NCBI GenBank assembly: GCA_003246265.1
Contig: QKAU01000002.1
Location: 1 to 64,000 of the forward strand
Direction of reading: 5' to 3'
From: Kiritimatiellales bacterium
GTDB lineage: Bacteria; Verrucomicrobiota; Kiritimatiellia; Kiritimatiellales; Pontiellaceae
DNA length: 64,000 nt
This document shows positions 40,151-48,206 of the stretch, one piece after another; the stretch's first letter is position 1, and every line of letters starts with the position of its first letter. A program made the position numbers and the translations under genes. Under the pieces are notes generated by a model. That model saw only the letters and a program-made list of their open reading frames with translations. It was not told the DNA's origin and made no database searches.

Positions 40151-40175
40151 CCCGGAGCGCGCAGGACGCGAATGA

Positions 40176-40212
40176 AAAGCCGCGATCCCGAGGGGGCGCG
40201 GCTTTTTTTTTA
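40176..40212 (+). terminator. Intrinsic terminator after cysK
   Basis: AAAGCCGCG and CGCGGCTTT form a 9-bp perfect stem with a 12-base loop, followed by a run of T to about 40212. Confidence 0.9.
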
Positions 40213-40239
40213 TTATGCCATCGTCGGGAGGCGCGGGGG

Positions 40240-41418
40240 CTACTTGAAGCGGAAATAGTTGTAGTGCTCCAGCTTCTTCCCGTACTGCTTGACGACCATG
40301 GAGACGGCCTCCAGGCGGATTGCCAGGCTCTCGAACTCGCTATCCAGGAACCCGGTCAGGTCGCGCTGCTTCGAGCTGAACATGCGTACGGTGCGGGCGC
40401 GCGTCTCGCAGATGCCCGAGAGGGTTTCGGCGCTGTCGATGAGGTCGGTGCGGATCTTGCGGTTGATCCGGTCGAGCTCCACCTGGGTGCAGCTTCCCTT
40501 GTCGAGCATCTTCTCGATCTTGTTGACCATCTGGTTGTGTTCGTCCGACCAATAGCGCAGCTCCCCGGCGGGACAGCTGCTGGCGGGGATGCGGCTGGAA
40601 GGATCGCTGTACCATGTGCCGATGATCTCGAAGATGGCATCGATCAGCATTTCCGTTTCGCGGTAGGGCTTGCCATAGGCGTCGTTGTATTTCTTCCAGT
40701 TGACCGGCCGCCACTCGACATCGTCGAGCCGGTAGCAGAAGCGGCGGATCTCCTCGCCCTTCTTGTCGTCGCTCTTCCACCGGATGTAGCTGGCGATGCC
40801 GATCACCTGCTTGTCGAGGTTCAGCACGGGACTGCCGCTGTTGCCGGGCACGAAATCGGCGCTCACCTCGATCCGGTCGGAACCCACGCCGTTCACCTTC
40901 CCATACAGTTCGGTGGCCACGCCGCCCCCTTCGCTGTTGCCGAAGACGGCGATAGGATCGTCGACAGCCAGTTCCCCGGAGACCGCCAGCGCGTCGTAAT
41001 CCAGGGGGAGGGGAAGACGGGCGATGTCGCGCCTGGCCGACAGCTCCACGCCCAGCGGCTGCACGGCATGCCCCGATGCGGTCTTGAAGCTGATCTGCTC
41101 GGCACCCATGATGATGTGCTGGTTGGTGAAGAGGTAGGGCTTCCCATCCATGAAGGCAACGAACCCGCTACCGGCGGACCGGCCCTTGATTCCTTCGCAC
41201 TCGATGAGGACCAGGTGGTTCTGCACGTCGTTGAAGGAGTAGCCGAACCGGGCCTTCATCTCCTTTTCCTCGGCCAGCCGTGCCGCAACGGCCGCATCCG
41301 ACTTCTCCTCCCCGTCCTCCTTCTTGTCCGCGGCGTCGTCGGCCATGGCGAGGGCGGCGTGGAGGAGGGCGACGGCGAGGCCGAGTCCGAGACAGCGGCG
41401 CGTGATGGACAGGTGCAT
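40240..41418 (-). CDS. Exported trypsin-like serine protease, catalytically intact
   Basis: A 392-residue protein with a signal peptide (LGLAVALLHAALAMA). Residues about 60-215 are a chymotrypsin-fold domain with the full triad: His101 (TNQHIIMG), Asp131 (ARRDIARLPL) and Ser194 (PGNSGSPVLN). A Lys/Glu-rich stretch (30-55) precedes it and a ~170-residue helical C-terminal domain with Cys pairs follows (CPAGELRYWSDEHNQMVNKI, CETRARTVRMF). It is the last gene of a three-gene minus-strand set and a paralogue of the inactive protein just upstream. Substrate unknown; no PDZ domain is seen, unlike DegP. Confidence 0.8.
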   Translation of the reverse strand: MHLSITRRCLGLGLAVALLHAALAMADDAADKKEDGEEKSDAAVAARLAEEKEMKARFGYSFNDVQNHLVLIECEGIKGRSAGSGFVAFMDGKPYLFTNQHIIMGAEQISFKTASGHAVQPLGVELSARRDIARLPLPLDYDALAVSGELAVDDPIAVFGNSEGGGVATELYGKVNGVGSDRIEVSADFVPGNSGSPVLNLDKQVIGIASYIRWKSDDKKGEEIRRFCYRLDDVEWRPVNWKKYNDAYGKPYRETEMLIDAIFEIIGTWYSDPSSRIPASSCPAGELRYWSDEHNQMVNKIEKMLDKGSCTQVELDRINRKIRTDLIDSAETLSGICETRARTVRMFSSKQRDLTGFLDSEFESLAIRLEAVSMVVKQYGKKLEHYNYFRFK

Positions 41419-41445
41419 GGTGTTTCCGGGGTTAGGGGTTGCGGG

Positions 41446-42516
41446 TCAATAGGTCGAGGATCCCATCCGGTCTATCAGGGCGGCGGCCGCCTCCAGCGCA
41501 TCCGCCTGGTCCCGGATTTCCCCGGCAAGATAGGCGGTTAGGCCGCGCTGTTCGGACAGCCGGCGAAGCTGGCGCGCCTGTGCAGAACACATGGCCGAAA
41601 GCCGCCTCATGCTGGAGGAATAGCTGTCGTAGAACTCGCGCCGCCCCTTGCCGACATCGACGGCTTGGCCGACAATGTCGTTGTGGGATTGCGCCCACGA
41701 GGCCAGTTCACGGTCGGGCTGTGCCCCGAATTGCACCTGGCCCAACGGTTTTTCGCGCCATCCCTCCAGCAGGTCGCCGATGCGGTCGAGCATGAGCGAT
41801 GCCTCGAGGTAGGGGGTTCCTACGTCGTGGTTGAAGCGCTTCCAGTCCACCGGCTGCCACTGGATCCCCTCGAGTTTCAGGCAGAAGCGCCGGGTTCCGT
41901 GATCGAAGCGCGACCCTTTCTTCACCGCGTCGCTTCTCGATTCGCGGGTATAGCTTGCCAGGGCCACGACTTCGCGCCGGGTATTCAGGACGGGGCAGCC
42001 CATGTTGGCCGTGTCGAATTCGGCCGTCACCTCGATCCGGTCCGCCCCGATGCCGCTGATCCGGCCGTAGATCGAATCCTTGGCCTCCTTGGCCTCGTCC
42101 TTGCCGAAAACGGCGACGGCCTCGCCCATGCCGCATCCGGAGGCCAGCGCGAAACCGCCGCCATCGGCCAGGGGCAGCCGGACCAGGTCGCCATTGGCTC
42201 CGACTTCGACGCCCTGCGGCTGGATGGCGCGGCCGCAGGGGGAGGTGAACTTGATGCGCTCGGCCCCCAGCAGCAGGTACTGGTTGGCCACCAGATAGGG
42301 CTTCCCGTCCATCATCGCCACGAAGCCGCAGCCATCGCGCTTCAGCTCACGGAATTCGCAGCGGATGCGCACCAGGTTGGTCGATACGTCGGCCAGTGCG
42401 TAGTCGAAGCTTGCCGCATCCTCCAGCCCGGCGGCCGCCATCCGGACCATCCCGAGCGTGCAGGCGCCCAGAAAGGCCAGCTGCCATTGACTACGGGGTC
42501 TCGGCGGGCTGTGCAT
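41446..42516 (-). CDS. Exported pseudoprotease, paralogue of the adjacent serine protease
   Basis: A 356-residue protein with a signal peptide (FLGACTLGMVRMAAAG) and the same layout as the neighbour: chymotrypsin fold, then a helical C-terminal domain. Aligned positions show loss of two of three catalytic residues: Tyr80 (VANQYLLLG) replaces His, Asp110 (ANGDLVRLPL) is kept, and Met172 (TANMGCPVLN) replaces Ser. Most fold-defining stretches (MDGKPYL, IQPQGVEV, ITAEFD-like, CPVLN) are kept, so it is probably a folded binding or regulatory partner. Its start overlaps the end of the upstream gene by 26 bases. Confidence 0.75.
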   Translation of the reverse strand: MHSPPRPRSQWQLAFLGACTLGMVRMAAAGLEDAASFDYALADVSTNLVRIRCEFRELKRDGCGFVAMMDGKPYLVANQYLLLGAERIKFTSPCGRAIQPQGVEVGANGDLVRLPLADGGGFALASGCGMGEAVAVFGKDEAKEAKDSIYGRISGIGADRIEVTAEFDTANMGCPVLNTRREVVALASYTRESRSDAVKKGSRFDHGTRRFCLKLEGIQWQPVDWKRFNHDVGTPYLEASLMLDRIGDLLEGWREKPLGQVQFGAQPDRELASWAQSHNDIVGQAVDVGKGRREFYDSYSSSMRRLSAMCSAQARQLRRLSEQRGLTAYLAGEIRDQADALEAAAALIDRMGSSTY

Positions 42517-43300
42517 CCGACGGCTCCTGCTCGTAGTATTCGAGGGTACGGGTGGAAAACTGCTCGAAGATCTTCTCCTTCCCCTTCAGGAGGTCGTAGG
42601 TCTGGAGCAGGCGCTGCGTCCAGTTTCCGTGCTCGTCGATCTTGAGGTATTCGTATTCGTTGAGGTTTTTCTTCTTTTCGCTCTTGTAGACCACCACCGA
42701 TCGTTGCAGCAGGCCCTGGTCGTTGTATTCGTAGGTGACGGTATAGTCGAGCCGTCCGTCTTCGTAGCGCGCATAGCGCTGCTTGATGTTGGCGGCGTCG
42801 CGATCGTAGGCGCTGAGCGGGACCGTCTTCCCGCCCGTCTTCTTGATGGTGGTGTTGACGCGGTACCTGGCTTCGTTGTACTCCTGCACCTCCACCTCTC
42901 CGGTGATCGAATCGACGTAGGCGATCTTGCGGGTCGGCAGGTTCACGACGACCTGGTAGTCGTTGGTCGTCTTGTCGCGCACGTCCTCCACGCGTTCCCG
43001 CACCATGCAGCCGGCCGCATTGAAGCCGTTGGTCGCCATGTAGATCTGCTTGCCGCGCGTATCCCACTTGTAGATCGAGACGAGGTTGCCCTGCTTGTCG
43101 TAGGTCTTGACCTCCTTGTACTTCCGGTCCGACATGTCGTATCCGTACTCGTTGGTTACCGTCTTGACCGGACCGAACAGGTCGTCGTCGATGGTGTCGG
43201 GCACGGCGATGTCGAGATGGGTAGGTTCTCCGGCAAGCAGCCGCAACGAAAGACAGGCGCACAGCGCCGCCTGCAAAGGAATCCAAGTCGGTTTCATCAT
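42491..43300 (-). CDS. Exported YD-repeat-like protein of unknown function
   Basis: A 269-residue protein with a signal peptide (MKPTWIPLQAALCACLSLRL, then LAGEP). The body is a string of beta-hairpin units resembling YD/RHS repeats: VTNEYGYDMSDRKYKEVKTY, YDKQGNLVSIYKWDTRGKQI, VTYEYNDQGLLQRSVVVY, LKIDEHGNWTQRLL. It starts at 43300 (or Met at 43297) after GGGGGTG; an upstream ATG at 43360 adds a non-signal leader. It is the first gene of the protease/pseudoprotease module. It might be a substrate, chaperone or wall-bound partner of those proteins. Confidence 0.65.
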   Translation of the reverse strand: MMKPTWIPLQAALCACLSLRLLAGEPTHLDIAVPDTIDDDLFGPVKTVTNEYGYDMSDRKYKEVKTYDKQGNLVSIYKWDTRGKQIYMATNGFNAAGCMVRERVEDVRDKTTNDYQVVVNLPTRKIAYVDSITGEVEVQEYNEARYRVNTTIKKTGGKTVPLSAYDRDAANIKQRYARYEDGRLDYTVTYEYNDQGLLQRSVVVYKSEKKKNLNEYEYLKIDEHGNWTQRLLQTYDLLKGKEKIFEQFSTRTLEYYEQEPSDAQPAETP

Positions 43301-43479: not shown

Positions 43480-44040
43480 CTAGTCCACCCGCTCCATGGC
43501 CGGGGTCGGTTCCGGCGGGGCGATTGCCTCGCCCGGCCCCGATGGGGCTTCTTCCGGTGCTGCGGGAACGCGGCAAAAGGTGTTCCTTACCCGTTCGGAT
43601 TTAAGGAAGTAGGGAATCCAGATCAGGGCTGCCACGACCGAGCGGACCAGTTCCTGCGCGGAAGAGGGATCCTCCTGGGCCGCCACGGCCGGGATCATGC
43701 GCGATGCGACGAGATCCAGGGCGACGATGGCCACGGAGGTGGCATAGAACAGGATGATCCAGCGAGGGAAGCGGGGGGACTTGGCGAAGAGCAGGATCAG
43801 CAAGGCCGCCGCCCAGCTCATCATGAGGGTGTTCCCGGCCAGCTCGAAGAGCAGGACGGGGGCCCAAAGGGGGTGGTATGCTTCCGTGCCGGGGCTCGTC
43901 AGTACGCCCCATGCACCGGACAGGAATACCTGGAGGTGGATGGTGATCAGCATGTAGCCTAGCCGGATAGGCGTGATGATCAATCCAATCATCGGGAGGA
44001 TCAACCATCCCCCGATCCCTGCAATGCGCCGACGTTCCAT
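43480..44040 (-). CDS. DUF2569-like membrane protein
   Basis: A 186-residue inner-membrane protein with about four helices. The N-terminal GIGGWLILPMIGLIITPIRL is the typical opening of DUF2569 proteins; a Pro/Glu-rich cytosolic tail follows the last helix (AAPEEAPSGPGEAIAPPEP). The start at 44040 has AAGGGGGTGGAG upstream; an in-frame codon at 44100 lacks one. It follows phoU on the same strand by about 90 bases, but no role in phosphate uptake is known for the family. Confidence 0.7.
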   Translation of the reverse strand: MERRRIAGIGGWLILPMIGLIITPIRLGYMLITIHLQVFLSGAWGVLTSPGTEAYHPLWAPVLLFELAGNTLMMSWAAALLILLFAKSPRFPRWIILFYATSVAIVALDLVASRMIPAVAAQEDPSSAQELVRSVVAALIWIPYFLKSERVRNTFCRVPAAPEEAPSGPGEAIAPPEPTPAMERVD

Positions 44041-44133
44041 GCTCCACCCCCTTGCCCAAGGATGCCAGTATGCACATCCAGCCGGGAAAGGCAAAAGCAA
44101 TGGCCGGCCATTTGCGGGCGGGGGAGGACAATC

Positions 44134-44796
44134 CTATTCGCTGCCGGCCTGGTGGCGCACGATGTCGGCTTCGACCATGTAGATCACATCTTCGGCGATG
44201 TTGGAGGCATGGTCGCCGATACGCTCCAGACGGTTGGTGATCGCCAGCAGGGTGATGAGCGATTCGGCGTGCTCGGGGTCGCGTTTGAGCGCCTCGACGA
44301 TCTCGGCCTTCATCTCGGCCTTCATGTCGTTGATCTCCTCGTCGTCGTGGATCACTTCGCGGGCAAGGTAGGTGTCGATGTTGACGAGGGCATCCAGGCT
44401 CTTGCGGACGATGGTTTTGACCAGGTAGGTCATCTGGTGGAGGTCGAGCGGGACCTTCGGCTTGGGGGCCTTGTTGATGGAGATGCCGTTCTTCGCGATA
44501 TCGGCGGCCAGGTCGCCGATGCGCTCCAGGTCGGAGTTCATGCGCATGATGGAGGTGATGAAACGCAGGTCGATGGCCACGGGCTGGTAGAGCGCGAGCG
44601 CCTTGAGGCACTCCTCCTCGACCTCGACCTCGAGCTCGTCGACGCCCTTGTCCTGCGCCATCACCCTGAGCGCCAGCTCCGCATCGCTCTCCTGGAAGGA
44701 TTTGACCGCCAGCTCCAACTGCTGGTCGACCCGTGCGCTGAGGGCATAGATCAACTTCTTGATCCGTTCGAGTTCCTTTTCCAAATGTTTGGCCAT
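44134..44796 (-). CDS. phoU: Phosphate transport system regulator PhoU
   Basis: A 220-residue helical-bundle protein with two PhoU repeats, each with the metal-binding E/DxxxD signature: RMNSDLERIGDLAADIAKN and AITNRLERIGDHASNIAEDV. PhoU links Pst transport state to PhoR and keeps the Pho response off in high phosphate. It ends the pstS-pstC-pstA-pstB-phoU order. The gap to pstB is about 60 bases. Confidence 0.95.
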   Translation of the reverse strand: MAKHLEKELERIKKLIYALSARVDQQLELAVKSFQESDAELALRVMAQDKGVDELEVEVEEECLKALALYQPVAIDLRFITSIMRMNSDLERIGDLAADIAKNGISINKAPKPKVPLDLHQMTYLVKTIVRKSLDALVNIDTYLAREVIHDDEEINDMKAEMKAEIVEALKRDPEHAESLITLLAITNRLERIGDHASNIAEDVIYMVEADIVRHQAGSE

Positions 44797-44859
44797 GGGG
44801 CTTCCTCCGGGGATCTGTTCAACCTGTGCGTCGGATCATGGGTCGTCCGCCGCGCCATA

Positions 44860-45681
44860 TCAACCAAAGCGTCCCGTAATATAGTTTTCCGTCTGCGGGT
44901 TGTCCGGGTTTGTGAAGAGTTGCTTCGTGTTGCCGAATTCCACCAGCACGCCTTCGTACATGAACGCGGTGAGGTCGGAAACGCGCGCCGCCTGCTGCAT
45001 GTTGTGCGTCACGATGATGATCGTGTATGCCTCGCGCAGCTCGCCGATCAGGTCCTCGATCTTGGCCGTGGCCTTGGGGTCGAGGGCGGAAGTCGGTTCG
45101 TCCATGAGCAGGATCTCCGGCTTGATGGCCAGCGCCCGGGCGATGCAGAGCCGCTGCTGCTGGCCGCCGGACATGCCGAGCGCGTTGGTGTTGAGCCGGT
45201 CCTTGACCTCGTCCCAGATGGCCGCCTGCCGGAGGCTGGTCTCGACGATCTCGCCAAGCTGCTGCCGGTTCTTGACGCCTTGGAGGCGGGGGCCGTAGGC
45301 CACGTTGTCGAAGATGGACTTGGGGAAGACGTTCGGCTTCTGGAACACCATGCCCACGCGCGAGCGCAGGGTAACGACGTCGATGTTGCGTCCGTAGATG
45401 TTGTGCCCGTCGAAGATCATCTGCCCCGAAGCATGGGTGGAGGGGATGAGGTCGTTCATGCGGTTGATGGAGCGCAGGAGCGTGCTCTTCCCGCATCCGC
45501 TGGGGCCGATCATGGCCGTCACCATGCGCTTGGGGACCTGCAAGCTGACCTTGCGGACCGCCTCGAAGTTGCCGTAGAAGAGGGAGAACTCCCGGGCTTC
45601 GATGTGCGTTTCGGCTTCCTGCGCCGAATCGTTGTGCTCGGCGAACTGGTCGAAACGGCGGAGCGTTATGTCGTCGTTCAT
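44860..45681 (-). CDS. pstB: Phosphate ABC transporter ATP-binding protein PstB
   Basis: A 273-residue ABC ATPase. Walker [10 protein letters not shown] (from residue 59), signature [18 protein letters not shown], Walker [14 protein letters not shown] and H-loop [14 protein letters not shown]. The family-specific [13 protein letters not shown] after Walker A marks it as PstB. A ~25-residue acidic N-terminal extension precedes the domain. Its ATG comes one base after the pstA stop, so the two are coupled. It powers high-affinity phosphate import at the inner membrane. Confidence 0.97.
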
Positions 45682-45682
45682 T

Positions 45683-47029
45683 TCAGCCTCTCAGTTTCTT
45701 GGCGATGCGGGCGCGCATCGTGATGGCGGCCAGGTTGAGCAGCAGCACGAGGGCGACGAGGGTCAGGACCATGCCGTACTGGACGTGGCGGATTTCGTCG
45801 ACCGCCTCATGCTCGGTGCACAGGTTGTAGATGTTCCATGGCAGGGCGGGGGTCGGCTGGTTCATGGTTTCCCATAGCTTGAGCGGCATGCCCACGCTCA
45901 CCGCGGCGGTAAAGATGATCGGCGCAGTCTCTCCGGCGGCGCGGCCCATGCTGATGACGATGCCGGTGAGGATGCCCGGCAGGGCCGCCGGCAGGATGAC
46001 CGTCAGCACCGTGCGCCAGCGGCCCGCGCCCAGGCCGAAGGCGGCCTCCTTGTAGGAGCGCGGAACGGCGAGGATCGCCTCTTCCGAGGAGCGGATGATG
46101 GTGGGGAGCACCAGCAGCGAGAGGGTCAGCGATCCGGCCAGCACGCTCTTGGAGTCCGAGACGTGGATGGTGTTGAGGAAGAACGCCAGGCCGAAGAGGC
46201 CGAACACGATGCTGGGTACCCCGGCCAGCGTACTGATGCAGATGCGCAGGAAGCTGATGATGCGTCCCTCCTTGGCGTACTCGCACAGGTAGACCGCGGC
46301 GATGACGCCCATCGGCACGGCAAAGAGCATGGCTCCCAGGGTGAGGTAGATCGTGCCCAGCACCTCGGGCCAGATCCCGCCGAAGATGTGCGAATCCTTC
46401 GAGGTGTCGGTGATGAAGCGCCAGTAGAAGGTCGTCCGCGGGCGCATCATTTCGTCGATATGCGCCGGCAGGTAGTCGAAGAGCGGTTCGAGACGGGTGC
46501 CGCGGAACTGGTCGACGCGGGGCTTCTCGATCTGCACGCCCATGGCGCCGGGGGTCGAGTAGTCCCATTCCGTGGCGTAGAGCACCTCGTGGAGCTTCAC
46601 CATGGTGCGGTCCCAGCGCGTCTGGCCATACTGCTGCCGCAGCAGGACCGGGGTCCGCTTTCCGGGCCGCGGTCCCAGCAATACATGGAGGGCTTCCTCG
46701 ACCTCCCCGTAGGCGTCCTTGTAGTTGCGCCGGACGGTGCGGTCCATCGCCTTCATCTCCGCCTCGAACTCCTCCAGCATGCGGTAGACCGGCGCGCGCG
46801 CCTCGGCCGCCTGGCGGGTCTCGCGGTTGAAAGCCTTCGCATCGCCCCGGCCGAACTGTTCGAGCATGACGCGGCGGTGCTCGATGGTGCCCTTGAACAG
46901 ATAGGCCTTGGATCCGCGCCAGATGATTGGTGTCAGGATCAGAACCAGCGCCATGGCCATGAGGGCGATCGCCATCAGGCCCAGTCCGGAGAAGGCCTTG
47001 TCGAGCAGTTTGCGGGTTCCGAGGCGCAT
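45683..47029 (-). CDS. pstA: Phosphate ABC transporter permease PstA, with large extra domain
   Basis: A 448-residue permease, about 150 residues longer than usual PstA. After the first helix ([19 protein letters not shown]) comes a ~180-residue, mostly charged insert predicted to be outside ([57 protein letters not shown]). The standard permease domain follows ([57 protein letters not shown]). It couples to PstB, one base away, and PstC, 4 bases away. Confidence 0.92.
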
Positions 47030-47033
47030 CAGG

Positions 47034-48206
47034 TCATTTCCCCAGCTTTTTGCGTGAACGTTTCACGATGAGCTCGCTGGCGAGGTTCATGGCGAAGGAG
47101 AAGGCGAGCAGGCAGGCCGCCATGGCGAACAGGACATGGAACCGCGCCGATCCGGTCACATGGTCGGCTTCGCCCATGTCGCCGGCAATGGTGGCGGTCA
47201 GGGTGCGGACCGGCTGGAGGACGTTGTACCACGGTTCGGGAATGCGCGCCGCGTTGCCCGAGGCCATCCAGACCACCATGGTTTCGCCGATCGCCCGCAT
47301 GACGCCGAGGATGACGGCGGCGAGGATGCCGCTGATCGATGCCGGAATGACCGCCTTGACCAGGGTCTCCGCGCGGGTGGCGCCCAGGGCGTAGGAGCCT
47401 TCGCGAAGTTCGCGGCCCGCCGCCTGCAGGGCATCCTCCGAGACGCTGACCACGGTGGGCAGGGCCATGATACCGAGGATGATGGAGACGTTGAGGGCGT
47501 TGGTGCCGCTGCTGATTTCGATTCCGGCGAGGCGGGCGGCGATCTGCCTGAGCACCAGGAAGGCCAGGATGCCCAACGCGGGAAAGATGACCGCCCCGGC
47601 CAGCCGGGGTTTTGGGAGCATGTGCTTGAGCCGGTCGAGCAGCAGGTCGCCGGCAACCATGACCAGCAGGAAGAAGACGGGGCCGAGCACGAGCCACGCC
47701 CCGATCGAAAGCACGGAGCCTCCGTGGTTCTGCAGGACGGTGGCGAAGACGACCAGGGCGAAGAACCCGTAGGCCACGGAGGGGATGGCGGCCAGGATCT
47801 CGATGACCGGCTTGACGACCTGGCGCATTCGGAAGGGAAGCAGGTCGCTGAGGCAAACCGCGGCCGCGATCCCGAGCGGGACGGCGACCACGACCGCGCC
47901 GAGCGTGACCAGTCCGGTTCCCACCATGATCGGCAGGGCGCCGAATTCGGGGGGATGGCCGGACGGGTACCAGCGCGTGGAGGTGAAGAACTCCCGGGTC
48001 CCCTCCAGTTTGAAGAAGGGGACCGCGTCCTTGAAGATGAAATAGAAGATGAAGAAGACGGCAAAGGTGGAGAGCGAGGTGACGAGGAAGAGCAGGCCCT
48101 GGCCCAGCCATCCGCCCAGGCGCAGGCGCAGGCTCGCGGCGTCGCTCATGACGAGGCTCTTGCTGGGACTTTGCGCCATGGAGTCTTGACTTCCCTGGTT
48201 GAACAT
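47034..48206 (-). CDS. pstC: Phosphate ABC transporter permease PstC
   Basis: A 390-residue permease with the PstC pattern: YPSGHPPEFGALPIMVGTGL, EILAAIPSVAYGFFAL, SEDALQAAGRELREGSYALG and RAIGETMVVWMASG. It is ~70 residues longer than common PstC, with an extra helix pair around residues 165-215. An alternative start lies at 48179. Part of the pst operon, 4 bases before pstA and about 100 after pstS. It forms the channel with PstA. Confidence 0.93.
   Translation of the reverse strand: MFNQGSQDSMAQSPSKSLVMSDAASLRLRLGGWLGQGLLFLVTSLSTFAVFFIFYFIFKDAVPFFKLEGTREFFTSTRWYPSGHPPEFGALPIMVGTGLVTLGAVVVAVPLGIAAAVCLSDLLPFRMRQVVKPVIEILAAIPSVAYGFFALVVFATVLQNHGGSVLSIGAWLVLGPVFFLLVMVAGDLLLDRLKHMLPKPRLAGAVIFPALGILAFLVLRQIAARLAGIEISSGTNALNVSIILGIMALPTVVSVSEDALQAAGRELREGSYALGATRAETLVKAVIPASISGILAAVILGVMRAIGETMVVWMASGNAARIPEPWYNVLQPVRTLTATIAGDMGEADHVTGSARFHVLFAMAACLLAFSFAMNLASELIVKRSRKKLGK

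Follow-up and report, generated by a model that had tools for sequence, protein, structure and literature searches.

Three genes lie together on the minus strand at 40240-43300 of the window, by which we mean the whole 64,000-nucleotide stretch analysed here, itself part of a 3.0 Mb assembly. They are transcribed in the order YD-like gene (P0003; 42491..43300, 269 aa), pseudoprotease gene (P0002, the B-type copy; 41446..42516, 356 aa) and HtrA-like protease gene (P0001, the A-type copy; 40240..41418, 392 aa). The pseudoprotease ATG, with AGGAG upstream of it, falls 26 bp inside the YD-like gene at its 3' end; after the pseudoprotease gene, 27 bp separate it from the start of the protease gene. 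All three products open with an apparent signal peptide, read by eye, consistent with an earlier note on this DNA that had described three exported proteins encoded together at this place. Directly upstream on the same strand, 43483-48206 carries pstC-pstA-pstB-phoU-like genes and then a DUF2569 gene, and the neighbour on the other side is a convergent cysteine-synthase-like gene. A hairpin at 40174..40215, of the form GCCGCG...CGCGGC with A-/T-rich runs on its flanks, was read directly; it is a probable terminator common to the trio and the cysteine-synthase-like gene, and received no flag from a simple scan. A promoter scan at the trio gave no signal above chance. The closest named relatives of the protease come from Pontiellaceae bacterium B12219, a Pontiella desulfatans MAG and other Kiritimatiellales, which makes it very probable that the host belongs to the Pontiellaceae, within the Kiritimatiellota.

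The protease, P0001, is apparently active: its triad is intact, with His101/Asp131/Ser194 in the usual motifs and a GNSGSP loop. It matches PF13365 (Trypsin_2) at 56.3 bits in the Pfam scan (E=7.7e-15) and TIGR02037 with E=7.6e-11, the latter at 41.6 bits against a curated degP/htrA cut-off of 416. The pseudoprotease, P0002, carries Tyr80/Asp110/Met172 where the triad has His/Asp/Ser, and reaches only 15.4 bits against Trypsin_2, under the cut-off. The two proteins share 37% identity over 316 aa (E=2e-74). A structural model of P0002 (pLDDT 83.0, pTM 0.77) has a two-barrel protease fold followed by four long helices (residues 225-255, 269-287, 292-321 and 328-355), and its best Foldseek matches are DegQ, DegP, DegS and HtrA1, with E about 1e-9. 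As modelled, the pseudoprotease is an HtrA/DegS-type barrel with a four-helix bundle in place of a PDZ domain; the Pfam scan found no PDZ domain, and the C-terminal part of the model consists of the four helices.

This helical domain is common to both proteins, occupying 41449..41865 of the minus strand in the pseudoprotease (from residue 218) and 40243..40719 of the same strand in the protease (from residue 234). Its A-type version is conserved, with W..V(N/D)WK.(Y/F)N at the start and a YF.F(K/E)-like tail, and designed coiled coils were its only sequence relatives in the PDB. What the earlier note had read from the letters of this pair agrees with the family alignment and the model, including the residue numbers of the P0001 triad, Tyr80 and Met172 beside a retained Asp (Asp110) in P0002, the kept protease fold, the paralogy of the two proteins and their shared C-terminal domain.

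The YD-like protein carries the motifs THLDI, YDxxGN and DxxGNWxQ, and residues H28, L29, I31, Y67, D68, G71, N72, D222, G225, N226, W227 and Q229 are invariant among 11 homologues. Its model (pLDDT 76.9, first 41 residues unreliable) shows about 15 strands arranged as an all-beta ladder, for which Foldseek returned 4ghb (E=1e-7), RhsA (E=2e-5) and, down to E=1e-3, Tc BC and teneurin shells. The TM-scores are low for all of these (0.50 at best, those to RhsA, Tc BC and teneurin included), and for that reason the likeness to RHS-type shells falls short of proof of homology. Neither PF05593 (RHS_repeat; 11.2 bits, cut-off 22) nor TIGR01643 (YD_repeat_2x; 10.7 bits, cut-off 15.8) was reached, and membership of a Pfam or NCBIfam family was rejected because no match rose above its cut-off. 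Five further YD-like homologues likewise had no Pfam match above cut-off, and a PDB search for sequence relatives of the YD-like protein returned none. The description of this third protein as a YD or beta-hairpin repeat protein is thus upheld at the level of the predicted fold but not by the cut-offs of the two repeat families.

A search with P0001 covered 58 genomes, the window's own included. Within the genus, tandem arrays are the rule where the protease family is present (most such genomes): the 16 tandem loci have two copies each, or three in one case (G004), and are found in G000 (twice), G001, G003, G004, G005, G007, G008, G009, G014, G017 (twice), G018, G021, G023 and G027. Three genomes (G006, G010 and G015) have one copy each, H/D/S at the triad positions in every case, while G026 and G028 stand outside both counts owing to contig ends or ambiguity. 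Near-identical trio loci (L055/L056) were observed in G018 and G041, genomes placed in different families of the order. This near-identity may reflect binning error, contamination or transfer, and because a binning error is possible the two were counted once for pairs.

The YD-like gene was found by profile search in 15 of the 58 genomes, and in all 13 that could be judged it lies directly upstream of a protease copy or is fused to one; the other two are G002, where it falls at a contig end, and G032, which has a distant lone homologue. Its presence is associated with that of the core protease (Fisher p=0.001, or 0.007 with the contig-edge G002 counted against), a value that serves only as a guide, the genomes being related. 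Three genomes, on at least two branches, encode the YD-like protein fused to a protease: G007 (647 aa), G001 (665 aa) and G010 (538 aa; the N-terminal part of the YD-like region lies outside the frame, in a genome 59% complete). The fusion linker is low-complexity and acidic/Ser/Thr, and the protease part is always a B-clade copy. Pairs persist without a YD-like gene in four genomes (G003, G017, G023 and G027), so the YD-like protein is not essential to the pair. In a mirror-tree comparison across seven genomes, itself uninformative, the YD distances tracked neither those of A (r=0.26) nor those of B (r=-0.29), and a search of 289 genomes from across the phylum saw no YD-like protein outside the order. 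The tandem pairs and the adjacency or fusion in 13/13 genomes together indicate that the trio is a real module; protease and YD-like gene do occur together, and the module proposed from the window alone stands.

In most relatives, the module is situated between a Na/Ca-exchanger-like gene and menaquinone-pathway-like genes (mqn/ubiE/ubiX-like neighbours, named by eye from the sequence start). In the window's genome this site holds another tandem pair without a YD-like gene (G000:C22:85879-88333; L007:6880-9334), whose first copy is H/D/S and second S/K/S, and the trio is found elsewhere, downstream of pstC-pstA-pstB-phoU. Being intact at a different site, the trio has, it seems, been held together through rearrangement. 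We rejected a role linked to the surrounding genes, since those in the window (pst/phoU, DUF2569, cysteine synthase) are not those of most relatives. In two relatives, a gene adjoining the pair and convergent with it codes for a secreted product whose signal is PEP-CTERM-like (L048:6008-7138 and L045:9577-10782), the signal matches being at or just under cut-off. Genes resembling it are apparently also present in L043, L049 and L052, and no such gene lies beside the window trio.

The family alignment comprised 51 members, of which 49 were placed in a tree built with the catalytic columns excluded, and by parsimony on this tree the triad was lost separately at least seven times. Losses in the core pairs affected the window B copy (Y/D/M), the G003 B copy (H/D/G), the G017 and G027 B copies in one event (H/N/G) and the second copy of G001 (H/D/N). 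Elsewhere they affected the S/K/S copy at the C22 locus of G000 (a long branch of unsure placement), one copy (R/D/S) of the second G017 pair, and a group of orphans (K/D/C and S/D/S). These inactive orphans (L065, L064 and L066, in G005, G017 and G001) have no active member of the family beside them. No triad loss is seen in the A clade proper, and in the tandem pairs of the genus one copy is always H/D/S, with both dead in none.

The orthologue of the window B copy in the nearest relative, G009 (L043/L038), is H/D/S, with ADSG at the position of GNSG in A-type copies. Triad-keeping B copies without the oxyanion-hole Gly are those of G007, G008 (KNSG), G009 (ADSG) and G021 (DNSG), while those of G005, G014, G018 and G023 look intact and fully active. 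Because the nearest relative is H/D/S and several B copies look intact, it is the pair, and not its inactivity, that is conserved. As read from the sequences, one member has lost activity repeatedly, in particular lineages and not ancestrally, and the "conserved inactive partner" of the earlier note does not describe this pattern.

A redundant duplicate drifting towards a pseudogene would be consistent with this lineage-specific inactivation, with the H/D/S state of the nearest relative and with the faster divergence of B-type copies (mean identity over seven genomes of 43%, vs 56% for A-type). However, the inactive copies in relatives are full-length open frames, free of the frameshifts that had been named beforehand as a sign of decay, and the fold of the window copy is predicted with confidence. 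The B copies of G017 and G027 differ with pN 0.245 and pS 0.67-0.70, giving a dN/dS of about 0.14-0.17, a ratio that is rough because synonymous sites are saturated. By domain, dN/dS is about 0.14 for the protease portions, where 24.5% of non-synonymous and about 70% of synonymous sites differ, and about 0.17 for the helical portions. Since H/N/G is common to both copies, they diverged after inactivation provided that the state has a single origin, as in the tree. Sequence free of constraint would not retain such an excess of synonymous change, and a ratio well under 1 means that purifying selection continued in this one lineage after the active site had gone.

Simple decay appears unlikely in the G017/G027 lineage on these substitution patterns, and as the explanation of the inactive copies in general we hold it to be very improbable. 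The window B copy stands alone in its dead lineage, and that it is kept for function would follow by analogy. A gene kept through several separate inactivations suggests that the dead copy probably has a job. The results support a conserved, genus-level module in which the inactive copy is under apparent selection.

Beyond the genus, a profile search with the helical domain matched 14 of 289 phylum genomes. In one distant family (f56), all four genomes with the domain carry abutting tandem pairs, five in all (L123:4510-7322, L124:4951-7229, L126:4678-6970, L132/L142 and L133/L143), and both copies are dead in every one, the first reading H/F/T-D-A/V/L and the second D/N/S-G-V/I/A. Another genome, G236 (L122:4941-8434), has a tandem pair with H/D/S in both copies, one of which bears an N-terminal leucine-rich-like region. 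Relatives of 534 aa at L127:4683-6284 and L128:4361-5962 are H/D/S and have an extra region N-terminal to the protease domain.

The earlier note knew of no described system of this composition. This holds for the addition of a YD-like protein and a helical bundle, which was not found in the family libraries or literature searched (in the latter, neither Kiritimatiellota serine proteases nor YD proteins with pseudoproteases came up), but not for the association of an active HtrA with an inactive partner, which is known from MamE/MamO (PMC4794232). There, as in MamE1/MamE2, one gene cluster encodes an active HtrA-type protease and an inactive trypsin-like protein, and the triad was lost independently after duplication, three times among duplicates of the MamE/MamO family; MamO activates MamE without catalysis, and a direct MamE-MamO interaction was not detected (PMC4794232). 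MamO differs in having a TauE transporter domain, the like of which is absent from the window pseudoprotease in both the Pfam scan and the model; what the window proteins have is the helical bundle and a YD-like partner. For MamO a regulatory role has been demonstrated, whereas for the window pseudoprotease it is one that we infer. Plant Deg7, in which an inactive protease domain serves in trimerisation (PMC3473262), similarly joins an active Deg protease domain to an inactive one, but does so in one polypeptide with four PDZ domains, whereas the window trio consists of separate ORFs without PDZ.

Within the HtrA/Deg proteases (S1C; DegS, DegQ, HtrA1), the likeness is by sequence for the P0001 protease domain and by fold for the P0002 model; P0001 has both the protease domain and the triad of this group, and P0002 has the fold but not the triad. 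HtrA/Deg proteins usually carry one or more PDZ domains, plant Deg5 having none, and the window pair differs from them in having a four-helix bundle instead of PDZ. The YD-like protein resembles RHS/YD shells, the Tc toxin BC component, teneurin and 4ghb (Bacteroides uniformis BACUNI_01323) in its predicted all-beta hairpin ladder, but at 269 aa it is too short to accommodate a toxin or cleavage domain.

We propose, with about even confidence, that the inactive copy works with the active one as its regulator or non-catalytic subunit and that the YD-like protein is a further partner. The precedents for this are MamO, which activates MamE without catalysis, and the dead domain of Deg7 with its part in trimerisation. 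The trio would then be an exported HtrA-like proteolytic module, in which the A-type copy supplies proteolysis of a presumed substrate and the B-type copy acts as a non-catalytic, or catalytically weakening, paralogous subunit with its fold and helical bundle kept. B would form or regulate a physical complex with A, probably via the bundle that stands where HtrA has PDZ, and regulation would be exerted by B upon A. With A supplying catalysis, B would be free to lose its active site, as it has repeatedly done. The YD-like protein may be viewed as a lasting partner of B, covalent in the fusions, and most likely as a substrate- or surface-binding adaptor.

The dead copy could also have been repurposed as an independent binding protein for a ligand, metal or substrate, no longer working with A, so that the operon reflects only the duplication. 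The protease domain of MamO binds metal directly (PMC4794232), and the f56 tandem pairs with both copies dead (5/5), together with the orphan inactive copies in G005, G017 and G001, indicate that the scaffold can serve without an adjoining catalytic partner. In the genus, however, tandem pairs always retain one H/D/S copy and the genes remain adjacent at different chromosomal sites, and we consider this reading rather unlikely. It is less likely still that the YD-like protein is a substrate or pro-region-like inhibitor of the protease, presented by B. Gene adjacency, export with the protease and fusions with a long low-complexity, possibly cleavable linker are consistent with such a role, but in G001, G007 and G010 the fused copy is H/D/S, which suggests a lasting partner, and the YD-like protein is missing from four pair-keeping genomes. 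That inheritance alone accounts for the YD-like protein being encoded beside the proteases, and that it acts separately from them, has very little probability in view of the 13/13 adjacency, of fusions that fall on two or more branches and of a trio that sits intact at another site in the window genome, although pairs without a YD-like gene exist and the lone G032 homologue (146 bits) lies beside transketolase with no protease.

If the inactive copy is indeed a subunit or regulator of the active one, a wider picture may be sketched tentatively: a heteromeric, PDZ-less HtrA-like system of Kiritimatiellota and relatives, in which the bundle would pair active and inactive subunits, the YD-like protein would serve as adaptor and the f56 pair would be wholly non-proteolytic. 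We regard this as possible rather than probable. To our knowledge, few bacterial protease/pseudoprotease pairs have a known role, and MamE/MamO is tied to magnetosomes. The related genomes described here contain graded states of one such pair, with both copies active, with a damaged oxyanion hole, with one copy dead and, in a distant family, with both dead. This graded series offers a natural test of why duplicated proteases become regulatory subunits, and of why a dead protease fold is kept.
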